From the NCBI GenBank assembly GCA_035528375.1, contig DATKYS010000110.1, positions 1-19,755 on the forward strand: 19,755 bases of DNA, given 5' to 3'. The position numbers and the translations under genes were made by a program. This document shows, one piece after another, positions 5,464-12,950 of the stretch. How positions within the stretch are numbered: the first letter of the stretch is position 1; each line of letters starts with the position of its first letter. The DNA is from a bacterium. Its GTDB lineage: Bacteria > RBG-13-66-14. The notes below the pieces were generated by a model. It saw only the letters and a list, made by a program, of their open reading frames with translations, did not search any database and was not told where the DNA came from.

Positions 5464-6411
5464 GTGAAAGTTCTGGTAACGGGCGGCGCCGGATTCATCG
5501 GCAGCCACATCGCCGACCGCTTCGCCGCCGAGGGCCACATCGTCCACGTGGTGGACAACCTCTACTCCGGCCACCGCCGCAACCTCGACCCCGCCCGGGA
5601 CTTCAGCGAGCTGGACGTCTCCGAAGGCGACAGCCCCGGAAGCGGCCCCGGTTCGCTCCGGAACCTCTTCGAGGTGTTCGCCCCGGAGCTGGTGGTCCAC
5701 GCCGCGGCCCAGGTCCGGGTCCGTTGCGACGACCACCTCCTCGACGCGCGGTACAACGTCCTCGGGTCGCTGAACGTGATCCACCACGCGGCCGTCCACG
5801 GGGTTCGGCGGCTGGTCTACATCTCCACCGGCGGCGCCGGCTACGGCGAGCCCCAGTACCTCCCCTGCGACGAGGACCACCCCATCCGACCCATGAGCGC
5901 CTACGGCATCAGCAAGCTGACGGTGGAGCACTACCTGAGACTCTACAACCTCGAGCGCGGCCTGGACTACGCGGTCATCCGGCCCGGCAACGTCTTCGGT
6001 CCCCGCCAGGACGAGCGGGGCGAGGCCGGGGTGTGCGCCATCTTCACCGGCCTGATGCGAGCCGGTGAGCGGCCGGTCATCTACGGCGACGGCGCCAACA
6101 CCCGGGATTACGTGTACGTGGGCGACGTGGTGGAGGCGGTTTGGCTGGCCGCCACGCGGCCCGAGGCCTCGCGCCGGGTGTACAACGTCGGCACCGGCGT
6201 CGAGACCAGCACCCTGGAAATTTTCGAAAACCTGGCCTCGCTCACCGGTTACCGGGGTAAGCCGGACCACGCCCCCGAGCCCAACGAGGTGAAGCGCATC
6301 TGCCTGGATTGCACCCGGATAAAAAACGAGTTGGGCTGGAAACCGAAGCTCGACCTGCGCGCGGGGCTGACCCGGCTGGTCAACTGGTCCGCCTCGGGCA
6401 ACCCACGCTGA
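5464..6411 (+). CDS. galE: NAD-dependent sugar-nucleotide epimerase/dehydratase (GalE family, extended SDR)
   Basis: A 315-residue extended short-chain dehydrogenase, the usual length for UDP-glucose 4-epimerases. It has the N-terminal Rossmann motif GGAGFIG (residues 7-13) and the acidic NAD-ribose binder VVDNLYSG (29-36). The catalytic STGG segment is at 121-124 and the active-site pair Y147-x3-K151 is in SAYGISK. A sugar-binding region RPGNVFGPRQ follows (173-182). It probably interconverts UDP-glucose and UDP-galactose or a related UDP-sugar for surface polysaccharide. Exact substrate cannot be read from sequence, so the symbol is a family label. The GTG start at 5464 is preceded by a purine-rich GAGGGGAAGGGGG run. 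The gene stands alone between its own promoter and terminator, with no neighbouring glycosyltransferases. Confidence 0.9.
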   Translation: MKVLVTGGAGFIGSHIADRFAAEGHIVHVVDNLYSGHRRNLDPARDFSELDVSEGDSPGSGPGSLRNLFEVFAPELVVHAAAQVRVRCDDHLLDARYNVLGSLNVIHHAAVHGVRRLVYISTGGAGYGEPQYLPCDEDHPIRPMSAYGISKLTVEHYLRLYNLERGLDYAVIRPGNVFGPRQDERGEAGVCAIFTGLMRAGERPVIYGDGANTRDYVYVGDVVEAVWLAATRPEASRRVYNVGTGVETSTLEIFENLASLTGYRGKPDHAPEPNEVKRICLDCTRIKNELGWKPKLDLRAGLTRLVNWSASGNPR

Positions 6412-6426
6412 GGCACCGATATTCCC

Positions 6427-6456
6427 GGGGCGGCCCCCGCGGCGCCCCCCTTTTTT
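6427..6456 (+). terminator. Rho-independent terminator after the epimerase gene
   Basis: GGGGCG (6427-6432) can pair with CGCCCC (6443-6448), followed two bases later by six T residues (6451-6456). It sits 16 bp after the epimerase stop codon. Confidence 0.7.
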
Positions 6457-6505
6457 AAATATCACCGCTTTTTCCCCGGGTCAATGAACCGCCCGCGGAG
6501 GTCGC

Positions 6506-7849
6506 ATGGCGACGATTCTGGTGGTGGAGGACGAGGCCAACCTGAGGCGGGCGGTCTGCCGCGGTCTGGATGAAAAAGGGCACCGCACCGTGCAGGCCGG
6601 CACGCTGGGCGAGGCGCGCCGTAGGCTTCTCGGCGTGTCGCCCGACGCCGTCCTCCTGGACCTCCGGCTGCCGGACGGCGACGGCCTCGAGCTCCTGGGC
6701 GAGCTGCGCGCCGGTCACCCCGAGACGCCCGTGGTGATTTTCACCGCCTACGGCGACGTGGACACGGCGGTGCGGGCGCTTAAAGCCGGGGCGGAGGATT
6801 TCTTCGAAAAGCCCTTCGAGCTCGAGGCGCTGGCGCTCATCCTGGAGCGGCTCGTCGAGAAGAAGCGGCTGCGGGACGAGGTGGCGGCCTTGCGGGAGAG
6901 GCTGGGCGGCGCGGAGCCGCTCGGCGATTCCCCGGCCTGGCGGACGGTCATGGAGACGGTTCGCCGGGTGGCCCCCACGGGCGCCACGGTGCTCTTCACC
7001 GGCGAGAGCGGCACCGGCAAGGAGGTGGCGGCCCGGGCTCTACACCGCCTGAGCGGTCGGAAGGGCGAGTTCGTGGCGGTGCACGCGGCGGCCCTTCCCG
7101 CCGAGCTCCTGGAAAGCGAGCTTTTCGGCCACGCCCGCGGGGCCTTCTCCGGCGCGGTGAAGGACAAGCCCGGGTTCTTCGAGCGCGCCGACGGCGGTAC
7201 GCTTTTCCTGGACGAGATCGGCGAGCTTCCACCGGCGACCCAGGTCAAGCTCCTGAGGGTCCTCCAGGAGGGGGAGACGGTCCGCCTGGGGGAGACGAAA
7301 TCGCGGCGGCTGGACCTGCGCCTCGTGGCGGCCACCAACTCCGACCTGAAGGCGTCGGTCGGGAGCGGGAAGTTCCGCGACGACCTCTACTACCGGCTGG
7401 CGGTGGTGACGGTGGAGCTGCCGCCGTTGCGGGAGCGGGGGAAGGACGTGCCTCTGTTGACGGGGCATTTCCTGCGGCGGGCGTCGGCGGCGCACGGGCT
7501 GCCCCCGCGGAGGTTCTCCCAGGAGGCGGAGCGCCGTCTGGCGGGGTACGCCTGGCCGGGCAACGTGCGAGAGCTCGCCAACCTATGCGAGCGGCTGGTG
7601 ATTCTCGGCCGGGGGGAGGAAATAGCCCCGGAGGAGCTGCCCGCCGAGGTCGTGGGTGCCGGGGTCGCGGACTGGCCCCCTCCTCCGCCCGGAGGCATGG
7701 GCTTGGACGAGGCGCTGGAGAAGCTGGAGCGGGAGATGCTCGGGCGCGCCCTGGCCGAGGCCGGGGGTGTGGCTCAGCGGGCGGCGAAAATTCTGGGCAT
7801 CGGCCGCGGCGCCATGCAGTACAAGCTGAAGAAGTACGGTCTGGCGTGA
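6506..7849 (+). CDS. NtrC-family sigma54-dependent response regulator (receiver-AAA+-Fis HTH)
   Basis: A complete 447-residue activator of sigma54 RNA polymerase. The receiver domain (about 1-120) has the acidic pair E8/D9, phospho-acceptor D52 in LLDLRLPD, T80 and K102. The AAA+ domain (about 135-370) has Walker A GESGTGKE (166-173), Walker B LFLDE (233-237) and arginine-finger region DDLYYRL (292-298). The sigma54-contact loop is GAFSGA (212-217), a conservative Thr-to-Ser change from the usual GAFTGA. The C-terminus (about 400-445) is a Fis-type helix-turn-helix ending AMQYKLKKYGL. GGAGG lies 4 nt before the ATG. No histidine kinase gene is adjacent, so the phosphodonor is unknown. The next genes downstream are preceded by a strong sigma54 promoter, so they are the obvious candidate targets. 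ZraR, HydG and AtoC are the closest architectural comparisons, but I cannot assign an orthologue. Confidence 0.95.
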   Translation: MATILVVEDEANLRRAVCRGLDEKGHRTVQAGTLGEARRRLLGVSPDAVLLDLRLPDGDGLELLGELRAGHPETPVVIFTAYGDVDTAVRALKAGAEDFFEKPFELEALALILERLVEKKRLRDEVAALRERLGGAEPLGDSPAWRTVMETVRRVAPTGATVLFTGESGTGKEVAARALHRLSGRKGEFVAVHAAALPAELLESELFGHARGAFSGAVKDKPGFFERADGGTLFLDEIGELPPATQVKLLRVLQEGETVRLGETKSRRLDLRLVAATNSDLKASVGSGKFRDDLYYRLAVVTVELPPLRERGKDVPLLTGHFLRRASAAHGLPPRRFSQEAERRLAGYAWPGNVRELANLCERLVILGRGEEIAPEELPAEVVGAGVADWPPPPPGGMGLDEALEKLEREMLGRALAEAGGVAQRAAKILGIGRGAMQYKLKKYGLA

Positions 7850-7865
7850 CGCATGGTTTCATGCG
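7850..7865. promoter_or_regulatory. Perfect 6-4-6 inverted repeat, candidate activator site
   Basis: CGCATG-GTTT-CATGCG is a perfect dyad beginning directly after the stop codon of the NtrC-type regulator. It lies about 190 bp upstream of the sigma54 promoter at 8054. The size and distance would suit an enhancer-binding site for a Fis-type HTH. Without a second copy this remains inference. Confidence 0.35.
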
Positions 7866-7907
7866 CCGGATAACGCGTTGATTTTCAAAGAGTTGGTTGA
7901 ATATCGA

Positions 7908-7931
7908 GCCCCCGGCCGCCGGTCCGGGGGC
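7908..7931. terminator. GC-rich stem-loop after the regulator gene
   Basis: GCCCCCGG (7908-7915) and CCGGGGGC (7924-7931) form a perfect 8-bp stem with an 8-nt loop. Only a weak pyrimidine run follows, so it may terminate or stabilise the regulator mRNA instead of being a classic terminator. Confidence 0.45.
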
Positions 7932-8006
7932 CCTTCGTTGACCAAAAACCTGCGCCGGCGGGATTCGCGGTCAGACATGGGTGAATCGCTGTAAATATCC
8001 ATCATC

Positions 8007-8026
8007 TGTATTATCAATAAAATACA
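8007..8026. promoter_or_regulatory. AT-rich dyad with an IHF-like site
   Basis: TGTATT (8007-8012) and AATACA (8021-8026) are perfect inverted arms 8 bp apart, in a conspicuously AT-rich island (about 7990-8030) within GC-rich DNA. The segment TATCAA-N4-ATA (8012-8024) matches the IHF consensus WATCAA-N4-TTR except for one base. It lies about 30 bp upstream of the -24 element. DNA bending there is expected between a sigma54 promoter and its enhancer. Confidence 0.4.
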
Positions 8027-8053
8027 CTTATCAGGCACCGACAGCCGGAGCCC

Positions 8054-8069
8054 TGGCACAACCCTTGCT
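8054..8069 (+). promoter_or_regulatory. Sigma54 (-24/-12) promoter of the zinc-ribbon/ZraP-like operon
   Basis: The sequence TGGCACAACCCTTGCT matches the sigma54 consensus TGGCAC-N5-TTGCW at every defined position, with the required 10 bp between GG (8055-8056) and GC (8067-8068). Predicted start is about 8080. That gives a very short leader that still contains the AGGAG ribosome site (8084-8088) ahead of the ATG at 8093. The gene for a sigma54 activator ends only about 200 bp upstream. Confidence 0.85.
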
Positions 8070-8092
8070 TTTAATACCGGCAAAGGAGAACC

Positions 8093-8344
8093 ATGTTCAT
8101 CATCGCGTTGATTTTCGCCCTCCCCGTCCTCGGCCTCCTCGCCGGATACCTCCGCCGGCGGGACGGGGACCGGGTCCGTCTCCTTTGCCCGGCCTGCGGC
8201 GGCGAGATTTCCCGGGACTACCTGGCCTGCCCCCACTGCGGGTCGCGGCTCCAAACCTCATGCCCGGCGTGCGGCAAGCCGGTGCGCTCCCTCTGGAAGA
8301 GCTGTCCCCACTGCGGGACGCCGCTGGGGGGTGAGACGAGGTGA
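8093..8344 (+). CDS. Small membrane-anchored double zinc-ribbon protein (83 aa)
   Basis: An 83-residue protein with one N-terminal membrane helix (about residues 2-20) followed by a basic stop-transfer RRR. The rest holds four CxxC knuckles (C32/C35, C46/C49, C57/C60, C71/C74) arranged as two zinc ribbons of the CPxCG type. By the positive-inside rule the ribbons should face the cytoplasm. AGGAG stands 4 nt before the ATG. It is the first gene after the sigma54 promoter and overlaps the start of the next gene by 4 bp, so the two are translationally coupled. I do not recognise a named family beyond 'zinc-ribbon domain protein'. A metal-sensing, scaffolding or chaperone-like role is possible but not shown. 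Confidence 0.8.
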   Translation: MFIIALIFALPVLGLLAGYLRRRDGDRVRLLCPACGGEISRDYLACPHCGSRLQTSCPACGKPVRSLWKSCPHCGTPLGGETR

Positions 8345-8895
8345 AAAAGCCGGTAATCGTGGTCCTCGGGATTCTGTCCGTCGGGGTGGTCGTGGCCGGT
8401 GTGGCGCTCATCGGCGTCTTCTGGCACCACGTCGAAGGGTGGGGGCCGCCGCCGAGCCCCTGGCGCCACGGGATGCAGGAGTGCCTCCTGGCGCCCGAGG
8501 AGCTGCCGCCGCCGGTAACGGAAAATCTCGACCGGATGGGTGTCGAGGAGCGGGAAAGAGCCTTCGACTTCCTCCGCGACCTGCGCCCCGGCCAGCGTCG
8601 GGAAGCCCTCCGCGAGCTCGGTGAGTGCCCCGCGCCTGAGTTTCGGGACCGGCTGGGTGGGATGATGGTAGAATCGCCGCACCCGCTCTTCCTGTTGCCG
8701 CTCGTCCTCCTGTTCTTTGGAAGCCTGGGCCTCGCGGTGACGCTCTACCTGGTCATCCGGAAGCGTGACCGTGGGCCTCGGCTCGAACGCTGCCCCCACT
8801 GCGGACGCCCCGTGGAGGCGGGTTGGAACTACTGCCCCTACTGCACCGGTCCGCTGGGATCCGGCAAAGGCTCGACCGACGCAGATTCATCGTGA
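8341..8895 (+). CDS. Two-TM membrane protein with helical extracytoplasmic segment and C-terminal zinc ribbon (184 aa)
   Basis: The start is a GTG within the GTGA overlap with the preceding stop codon. Membrane helices are at about residues 4-27 and 115-139. The loop between them (about 28-114) is Pro-rich and then alpha-helical. It contains LRPGQRREALREL (81-93), which resembles the LTxxQ/LSPEQR helices of Spy, CpxP and DUF3106 proteins. After the second helix a basic KRDR leads to one zinc ribbon (CPHC 151-154, CPYC 165-168). The predicted topology puts the helical domain outside and the ribbon inside, which would suit transmembrane sensing. Its operon partners are another zinc-ribbon protein and a secreted LTxxQ protein. 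No established family is recognised, and the functional reading is inference. Confidence 0.8.
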   Translation: MKKPVIVVLGILSVGVVVAGVALIGVFWHHVEGWGPPPSPWRHGMQECLLAPEELPPPVTENLDRMGVEERERAFDFLRDLRPGQRREALRELGECPAPEFRDRLGGMMVESPHPLFLLPLVLLFFGSLGLAVTLYLVIRKRDRGPRLERCPHCGRPVEAGWNYCPYCTGPLGSGKGSTDADSS

Positions 8896-8906
8896 AATTT
8901 AACGTG

Positions 8907-8922
8907 TCCCGCCCCGGCGGGA
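8907..8922 (+). other. Small stem-loop before the ZraP-like gene
   Basis: TCCCGC (8907-8912) pairs with GCGGGA (8917-8922) around a CCCG loop, in the 44-nt gap before the third operon gene and about 10 nt before its Shine-Dalgarno. There is no T-run, so it is not a terminator. It could set relative expression or mark mRNA processing. Confidence 0.35.
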
Positions 8923-8939
8923 ACGCATAAAGGAGAGAG

Positions 8940-9476
8940 ATGATACGCAGAAAAACGGCCCTGATTCTCGCCCTCGTAACCGGTATCCTCCTCGTCGCCG
9001 CCCTGCCCGCCGTATCGTACGGTCCGCTCCGCACCGGCGGTGGACCCGGTGACGGTGGGCCACGGGGGGACGGCCCCATGTGCCTGGCCTTCATCCCCGA
9101 CATCACGGCGGATCAGCTCGAGGCCATAGCCGCCATCCGCGACGAGCACCACGACGCGATGCAGGACGTGCGTGACGCGCTCTACGAGGCCAAGACCGCC
9201 TTCCGGGAGCTGATGCGCGACCCCGATCCGGACCTCGCCGCCGTGCGCCGGGCCAAGGAAAAACTGGACGCCCTGGAGACCGACATGCTCATCGCCCGGC
9301 TGGAGATGCGCGCCGCCGTGCGGGACGTCCTGACCGACGGTCAGCGGATCTTCTTCGACGAGATGCAGGCCTTCGGCCCGCACCACGGACCGGGCATGGG
9401 CCCCGGACCCGGCATGGAATGGCATCCCGGCTCGGGACCGGGCATGGGCCCCGGACCGGGCAGGTCCGACGACTAG
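8940..9476 (+). CDS. Secreted Spy/CpxP/ZraP-like LTxxQ protein (178 aa)
   Basis: An N-terminal signal peptide (basic MIRRK, hydrophobic core, probable cleavage near AVS-YG, residue 26) precedes an all-helical body. That body carries two LTxxQ-type motifs, ITADQ (55-59) and LTDGQ (131-135), which mark the Spy/CpxP/ZraP family of periplasmic chaperones and zinc-responsive proteins. A low-complexity tail follows, with GPGMGPGPG twice (about 150-158 and 166-174) and histidines (FGPHHG, EWHPG). That tail could bind metal. The length (178) is close to the family's usual 140-180. GGAG lies 4 nt before the ATG. It is last in the sigma54-driven operon, and a strong terminator follows. It probably buffers misfolded envelope proteins or excess metal. 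Confidence 0.8.
   Translation: MIRRKTALILALVTGILLVAALPAVSYGPLRTGGGPGDGGPRGDGPMCLAFIPDITADQLEAIAAIRDEHHDAMQDVRDALYEAKTAFRELMRDPDPDLAAVRRAKEKLDALETDMLIARLEMRAAVRDVLTDGQRIFFDEMQAFGPHHGPGMGPGPGMEWHPGSGPGMGPGPGRSDD
9387..9457 (+). repeat. In-frame 23-bp duplication in the ZraP-like C-terminus
   Basis: Identical 23-bp copies occupy 9387-9409 and 9435-9457, offset by 48 bp (16 codons). They encode the repeated Gly-Pro-Met tail, so the tail appears to have grown by recent in-frame duplication. Confidence 0.75.
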
Positions 9477-9512
9477 CGCCGAACCCCCTCCCTCCCAGGT
9501 GAGGCGCAAAAA

Positions 9513-9540
9513 GGGGAACCCCTCAGGGTTCCCCGCTTTT
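9513..9540 (+). terminator. Strong rho-independent terminator of the zinc-ribbon operon
   Basis: GGGGAACCC (9513-9521) and GGGTTCCCC (9526-9534) form a perfect 9-bp stem with a CTCA loop. A short T-run (9537-9540) follows, and an A-run precedes it (9508-9512), so it may act in both directions. Confidence 0.9.
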
Positions 9541-12112: not shown

Positions 12113-12184
12113 GCGTCCCAGAGTACCGCAAGGTACGTTGGTCAAGTCCGGCACGGCCGGATACTGACCACTGGGCGTTTTTTT
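12113..12184 (+). ncRNA. Candidate small structured RNA: three-way junction with U7 terminator
   Basis: From the predicted start to the T-run the roughly 72-nt transcript folds almost completely. The outer helix pairs 12114-12121 with 12171-12177 (7 bp, one bulged U). Hairpin one is GUACC-GCAA-GGUAC (12123-12136), with a GNRA tetraloop. Hairpin two has UGGUCA (12139-12144) with UGACCA (12165-12170), then an asymmetric internal loop, then UCCGGC-ACG-GCCGGA (12147-12161). Junction linkers are only 0-2 nt. Seven Ts (12178-12184) follow the closing helix, so the closing helix doubles as the terminator. The promoter upstream and T-run downstream fix the plus strand. I could not match it to a known riboswitch, tRNA, SRP or 6S family. 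It is convergent with the DUF3800 gene, whose stop codon overlaps the T-run. Confidence 0.65.
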
Positions 12185-12950
12185 ATGGCCAGAGCTTAAG
12201 CCCTTCGGGTGTCCCCCTGCGAACCCGTGTTAAAGGTGTGCAGTCAATCTTGTCTATAATAGCGGAAAAGTACGTGTCATTCCCTCGTTCAAATTTCTGA
12301 AACGCGATACCGGCCACCAGATCGGCAAATTGCACACCGAAGCTGTATTCCGAGGGGGTCAGATAAACATTGTCAACGATATTCTCAAACTTCGTGTAGT
12401 AGGAACCATCAATAAACAATGAGTGATAGAAGCTTCTTAACCTCCGGTCTTGAGATTTGTCCCTGCTGTCCTGTATTCCGATCCCTCTGTTTTGTGTTTT
12501 CCTGAGAAAATTCTGAAATCTCTCTAACAGAAGAAGAAGCGCCTGAGAGTACATACTCTCAGGTTTATTAATATATTCTTTTTCATAAGCAGCCTGTTTA
12601 TTAATTGAAACGACATAGAATCTGACACTTCTAATGCCACGAAGGGCATCAAGCAACTCGCATAGCAGATCATGTTTCCTGGCGGGGTCCCAGTTATTCA
12701 GTGGATTCAAAGCGGCCCTCTTAGCATGCTTATCACTTAATGACGGATTGATGAACGGCTTATGGAAGTACTCCCACTTCAATTCAGTTATTAATGGGAT
12801 CGAATATTTTTGTTTAATAGAGTGAAGATAAAAGCGCAATTTCCGGCAATCAACTTCATCAATGGAAAAACCGGCAGCGACAAAAAAATTAGTCGCATTC
12901 GGACGTGGCCTTCCAACGTCACCAGACTCATCAATATAGAGGAGGTGCAT
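12183..12950 (-). CDS. DUF3800 family protein, low-GC and probably acquired (255 aa)
   Basis: A 255-residue protein with the DUF3800 hallmarks: N-terminal YIDESGDVG (5-13), a central aspartate cluster IQDSRD (159-164) and C-terminal QFADLVAGIAF (207-217). The family is thought to adopt an RNase-H-like fold with these aspartates (D7, D161, D210) as probable metal ligands. It is scattered through mobile and defence-associated loci, but its activity is poorly characterised. Base composition is strikingly AT-rich compared with all neighbours. Codon use also differs, for example many ATA, TTA and AAA codons. It starts 2 bp after the pdxA stop on the same strand, with no clear Shine-Dalgarno, so it probably depends on pdxA transcription and translation. 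Its TAA stop overlaps the T-run of the opposing small RNA. Confidence 0.88.
   Translation of the reverse strand: MHLLYIDESGDVGRPRPNATNFFVAAGFSIDEVDCRKLRFYLHSIKQKYSIPLITELKWEYFHKPFINPSLSDKHAKRAALNPLNNWDPARKHDLLCELLDALRGIRSVRFYVVSINKQAAYEKEYINKPESMYSQALLLLLERFQNFLRKTQNRGIGIQDSRDKSQDRRLRSFYHSLFIDGSYYTKFENIVDNVYLTPSEYSFGVQFADLVAGIAFQKFERGNDTYFSAIIDKIDCTPLTRVRRGTPEGLKLWP
12542..12563. repeat. 22-bp palindrome inside the DUF3800 gene
   Basis: Arms CCTGAGAGTA (12542-12551) and TACTCTCAGG (12554-12563) are perfectly complementary around a 2-bp centre. It lies within the coding sequence (around residues 129-136) and could form a cruciform or be a protein-binding site. Confidence 0.6.

Follow-up and report, generated by a model that had tools for sequence, protein, structure and literature searches.

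A probable sigma54-dependent envelope- or metal-stress circuit with zinc-ribbon membrane proteins in Candidatus Coatesbacteria

The sigma54-dependent regulator ZraR is activated by zinc and belongs to the response to envelope stress (PMC7657598), and the negative regulator CpxP is believed to bind the CpxA sensor domain (PMC6737893). We analyzed a 19,755-nt stretch of DNA (hereafter the window; contig DATKYS010000110.1 of assembly GCA_035528375.1), the full length of one contig in a 2.63-Mb genome (G000) of the phylum Candidatus Coatesbacteria, which carries an NtrC-type sigma54 activator followed by a -24/-12 promoter and a three-gene operon for two zinc-ribbon membrane proteins and a secreted LTXXQ protein. 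From sequence and genome comparison, this locus is probably best explained as a sigma54-dependent envelope- or metal-stress response with an unlinked DUF4118 histidine kinase. Like ZraSR-ZraP, it combines a sigma54-dependent response regulator of the NtrC family with a periplasmic output protein of the CpxP/Spy/ZraP superfamily, and the output gene is served by a sigma54 promoter. However, the regulator scores 326.9 bits against a cut-off of 760 for the ZraR equivalog (NF007689), the LTXXQ protein is ZraP-like at the superfamily level only and reaches neither the Spy nor the CpxP-family equivalog cut-off, and the window shows no adjacent ZraS kinase with zraP divergent from zraSR. The two membrane zinc-ribbon proteins of the operon are a further difference, and while the ZraS sensor is periplasmic, that of the candidate kinase is a DUF4118 membrane sensor. 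We assign the circuit to the sigma54 envelope/metal-stress two-component kind, and it is set apart from ZraSR-ZraP because the regulator equivalog and adjacent-kinase tests failed.

CnrYXH-type systems share the Metal_resist/LTXXQ superfamily with the window and rely on an extracytoplasmic function (ECF) sigma factor with a zf-HC2-like anti-sigma factor, whereas the window locus has neither and uses sigma54 with an NtrC-type regulator. In other Coatesbacteria families (G008, L107; G011, L115; G012, L105), tandem Metal_resist genes are accompanied by genes for a zf-HC2 anti-sigma factor and an ECF sigma factor. This suggests a switch of control system within the phylum, with the same periplasmic superfamily found beside an ECF sigma factor or under sigma54 control depending on the family. 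The Psp system (PspF-PspABC) resembles the window in having a sigma54 activator next to a short operon whose products associate with the membrane. PspF lacks a receiver, whereas the window regulator has one, and no Psp domains were found in the operon products. A literature search with little coverage of subscription papers returned no article that links zinc ribbons to DUF4118 or to LTXXQ.

The regulator and its operon

The domain search bore out the full NtrC-family activator of the initial annotation (Table 1), with Response_reg, Sigma54_activat, AAA_lid_14 and HTH_8 domains, that is, an intact receiver, an AAA+ domain with a GAF(T/S)GA loop and a Fis-type helix-turn-helix (HTH). The Walker A motif GESGTGKE is intact and the sigma54 contact loop reads GAFSGA. 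In an alignment of the five operon-carrying genomes (G000, G001, G003, G004 and G006, all of one family), the receiver residues D9/E10, D52, T80 and K102 are kept throughout, with position 10 of the first pocket pair varying between D and E, so that a phosphodonor is expected. No histidine kinase was found in the window, nor near the regulator in G004 or G006; with a canonical receiver and a kinase that is not adjacent, the regulator reads as an orphan by position only. The sigma54 assignment hinges on rpoN, which is encoded in the genome of the window together with seven full sigma54 activators and about ten histidine kinases.

Table 1 Features of the regulator-operon locus in the window.
Feature	Coordinates	Strand	Details
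NtrC-type sigma54 activator (REC-AAA+-Fis HTH)	6506..7849	+	447 aa; domain search
Putative enhancer (upstream activating sequence) dyad CGCATGGTTTCATGCG	7850..7865	.	188 bp before -24 element; comparison
-24/-12 (sigma54) promoter TGGCACAACCCTTGCT	8054..8069	+	predicted start ~8079-8080; pattern search and comparison
Operon gene 1: N-terminal transmembrane (TM) helix, then double zinc ribbon (four CxxC)	8093..8344	+	83 aa
Operon gene 2: TM-periplasmic helical loop-TM-cytosolic zinc ribbon	8341..8895	+	184 aa; topology inferred
Operon gene 3: secreted Metal_resist/LTXXQ protein (CpxP/Spy/ZraP superfamily), Gly/Pro/Met/His tail	8940..9476	+	178 aa
Intrinsic terminator-like hairpin closing the operon	9513..9534	+	9-bp GC-rich stem, T-rich tail

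The promoter is the sole exact -24/-12 match within the window and lies 24 nt before the ATG of gene 1, with an AAAGGAG ribosome site between the two. Its perfect TGGCAC-N5-TTGC sequence, already recognized in the initial annotation, recurs 24-29 nt 5' of the first start codon in 5/5 genomes, and it is retained while the zinc-ribbon proteins drop to 35-49% identity among the same genomes. Genome-wide, the pattern at up to one mismatch gave 41 sites versus 69 for a reversed control pattern; the match is weak when taken alone because the control is the commoner of the two, and the evidence for a promoter is instead that all five genomes keep the site in the same position. Upstream of it, the dyad (CGCA-N3-TTT-N2-TGC) has a single copy in each of these genomes, invariably ahead of the operon, and no further copy was found in ~77 kb of compared regions. 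The window dyad is unique in the whole genome at up to two mismatches, and the same genome-wide search revealed no other target of the regulator. The distance from the end of the dyad to the -24 element is 187-189 bp in the genus of the window and 64-65 bp in G004 and G006. The putative dyad is a strong candidate but not a conclusive one, because the motif was picked after seeing the sequences and the G004 copy is inside a terminator-like hairpin.

All parts of the predicted three-gene operon and its strong terminator were recovered. Gene 1 matches Zn_ribbon_3 (E=3e-15) and DZR (E=2e-11), and its eight zinc-ribbon cysteines are invariant across the five genomes (8/8). The start of gene 2 overlaps the stop of gene 1. 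The zinc ribbon is the most conserved part of both membrane proteins, and a positive-inside reading of the sequences suggests that it is cytosolic in both, where it could contact the kinase or the regulator. The product of gene 3 matches Metal_resist (PF13801, E=5e-13) and LTXXQ (PF07813, E=2e-6), both above the cut-offs, and is the only PF13801 protein found in the genome; a sequence search of the PDB with it gave no meaningful match. The periplasmic loop of the gene 2 product was considered as a diverged LTXXQ/Metal_resist domain and rejected: the Pfam match is sub-threshold (E=0.0037) and missing from the G004 and G006 homologues, hhalign paired the TM helix only, and the best Foldseek hit had E=1.5. 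The AlphaFold model of this protein is poor (mean predicted local distance difference test score, pLDDT, 65.5).

A search of 117 genomes for the gene 2 protein found clear relatives only in G001, G003, G004 and G006, and the viral contigs searched held no relatives. In all four genomes a double-zinc-ribbon gene directly precedes the gene 2 relative, and a Metal_resist gene follows it in G001, G004 and G006; the G003 contig breaks inside the gene, and a Metal_resist gene is present on another contig. A second Metal_resist-like gene, more diverged, is present in G004 and in G006. The anticipated tie between regulator and operon recurs in these relatives, with regulator orthologues (65-91% identical) in exactly the five operon-carrying genomes and the next-best match in the phylum sample at 49% identity or less. 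In G006 the pair is divided, the regulator being next to the same epimerase gene on contig 46 and the operon on contig 24, where it retains both dyad and promoter. Since both sites are kept although the operon is unlinked, the regulator most plausibly acts in trans, and on this comparison the G006 split separates conserved control from mere neighbourhood. The operon, its promoter, the dyad and a coupling of regulator and operon that persists even when they are unlinked are thus supported by comparison. Zinc-ribbon matches in Acidobacteria, Chloroflexota and Planctomycetota were rejected as relatives, being mostly ribbon-only and, except for L137, without kinase or regulator in the fetched DNA; L137, with a kinase-NtrC pair ~2 kb from the ribbon, was set aside.

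A candidate kinase and a Bacillota-type module

A membrane histidine kinase with a DUF4118 sensor is encoded at G000:C98:17463-18542 and is the best candidate, a somewhat probable one, for the partner of the window regulator. Full-length orthologues occur only in the family of the window (G000-G004 and G006), and in other Coatesbacteria only the catalytic part matches. G002 (75% complete) has the kinase without the regulator, and G005 (70% complete) has neither. No response regulator was found near the C98 kinase in the stretches examined. The lack of an adjacent kinase noted earlier therefore stands for adjacency and not beyond it, as the receiver is intact and an unlinked DUF4118 kinase is a good candidate. 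Similarly, the regulator-promoter-operon core of the proposed self-contained regulon is supported, while its self-containment is qualified by this kinase, which is found only in the family and without an adjoining regulator.

The proposal that the zinc-ribbon membrane proteins belong to the circuit is strengthened by an independent Bacillota-type module (L132/L202; L199 in G345; L200 in G350; L201). In L132/L202, genes for a TM-loop-TM-zinc-ribbon protein, a TM-double-zinc-ribbon protein, a DUF4118-type kinase and an NtrC regulator form one run behind an exact sigma54 site. Across 299 genomes related to the L132 genome, one or two TM-zinc-ribbon genes stand directly upstream of 4/5 kinases, these five being the best hits that extend into the sensor region and L132 itself being one of them, versus 0/25 other kinase loci (Fisher's exact p ~2e-4, calculated by hand). 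TGGCA(C/T)-N5-TTGC is found upstream in all four modules. Window and module are alike in their TM-zinc-ribbon gene(s), sigma54-like site and NtrC-type regulator, and a DUF4118-type kinase is encoded in both groups of genomes; in the module the kinase and regulator are contiguous with the zinc-ribbon genes, whereas in the family of the window the candidate kinase is in the same genomes but unlinked. The G345 and G350 modules adjoin heavy-metal P-type ATPases (copper-type) with metal-binding domains, and the G175 module is beside an RND-type pump, the names of the G345 ATPase and the G175 pump being read from sequence. The reading frame of the G345 regulator is broken into two pieces. In G350 (L200), the ATPase gene has an exact sigma54 site in front of it, and near the L202 module (6404-7172, minus strand) are two tandem Cys-rich, probably secreted proteins (MAAAGCPNGTKCN...), one of which was searched and gave no Pfam match.

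Proposed mechanism and alternatives

In the mechanism we propose, the unlinked DUF4118 membrane histidine kinase would phosphorylate the NtrC-type regulator, which would bind the dyad and activate sigma54-RNA polymerase at the promoter. The output would be a Spy/ZraP-like periplasmic protein that binds metal or misfolded protein, together with two proteins of the inner membrane whose zinc ribbons would face the cytosol and which would act on the kinase or the regulator as accessory or feedback proteins. Metal or envelope stress is quite probably the signal; that the zinc-ribbon proteins exert feedback is put forward tentatively. The envelope- or metal-stress circuit with zinc-ribbon sensing of the initial annotation is thus supported as a circuit; the sensing role and the metal signal are parts that we infer.

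Several observations weigh against this mechanism. The DUF4118 score of the C98 kinase is 28.3 bits versus a cut-off of 28.4. In the Bacillota-type kinases DUF4118 is sub-threshold and weaker than in the window kinase, with none reported for G350, so that the assignment of their sensor class depends in part on how they align with the L132 kinase. The Gly/Pro/Met/His tail of the gene 3 product is of low complexity, and no metal transporter was recognized beside the window operon. The five genomes come from one family, so their co-occurrence pattern may partly reflect shared descent. A quick tree with a weak backbone places the window regulators in their own long-branched clade, not grouped with the Bacillota module regulators, and gives no support for common ancestry of the two; the order of the zinc-ribbon genes is also reversed between module and window. 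The module is for these reasons a working analogue and not proof of common descent, the likeness being one of layout, with orthology not shown.

Another kinase, or small phosphodonors, could instead drive the regulator, with the C98 kinase serving a different one. At least two further NtrC-type regulators (C137 and C71) appear without a HATPase_c kinase nearby, and the kinase-regulator co-occurrence is confined to one family, both of which suit this rather unlikely alternative; yet among the membrane kinases examined a DUF4118 sensor is found only in C98, C51 carrying CHASE2 and C29 adjoining a receiver gene. The zinc-ribbon proteins might also have no signalling part at all and serve metal trafficking or membrane protein quality control in a plain ZraP/Spy-type effector operon. 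Their genes lie downstream of the promoter, i.e., in the output, and zinc-ribbon and LTXXQ products would suit an effector set, but the Bacillota-type zinc-ribbon genes directly before the kinase, and the lack of a Metal_resist protein in G117, the one Bacillota-type genome checked, fit an accessory signalling role better, and we regard an effector-only operon as unlikely. Least likely of the three is a Psp-like arrangement, in which the two zinc-ribbon proteins would keep the regulator inactive at the membrane until envelope stress sets it free, with phosphorylation secondary. Small membrane proteins with cytosolic domains are indeed co-encoded next to their own sigma54 activator, with the ribbons as their best-conserved part; however, the phospho-receiver is fully conserved in 5/5 genomes, unlike PspF, the operon contains no PspA, PspB or PspC homologue, and the Bacillota modules have a kinase in place.

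More tentatively still, small membrane proteins with cytosolic zinc ribbons could be a third component, recurring but unrecognized, of the sigma54 two-component systems of distant phyla. Such a component would link the condition of the envelope, or of metal, to a DUF4118-type kinase with its NtrC regulator. With a single regulator, promoter and operon, the circuit is compact and clear-cut and could be reconstructed in a laboratory host, where the part played by membrane zinc ribbons in signalling could be tested.

Other sigma54 sites and neighbouring genes

The genome scan proposed in the initial annotation gave seven exact -24/-12 sites, others of which precede groES-groEL (G000:C132:47074-47089), an Hsp20 gene (G000:C137:79533, L008) and the gene of a 277-aa sigma70-family factor (G000:C21:17081, L002). 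TGGCA(C/T)-N5-TTGC is present within ~110 nt upstream of groES in 10/12 Coatesbacteria genomes from five families (L143-L154), where a pattern search found no CIRCE element; of the remaining two loci, the site in G006 is at -185 and may be part of a repeat, and the G004 contig ends at 125 nt. In Coatesbacteria, the sigma factor for the chaperonin may be sigma54. RpoN-dependent groESL3 is described in Bradyrhizobium (PMC4842269), so the principle is not new, but its use across a phylum would be. Together with the window circuit, the groES sites suggest that a large share of the response to protein-folding and envelope stress in Coatesbacteria depends on sigma54.

In G006, a dispersed sequence with (T/C)GGCACGGTTTTTGCA mimics sigma54 sites (L058 8341, L205 7458 and elsewhere) and looks like a repeat family. 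In the window, a DUF3800-like open reading frame at 12183-12950 on the minus strand, identified by eye, lies between miaB-like and pdxA-like genes and may be an insertion.

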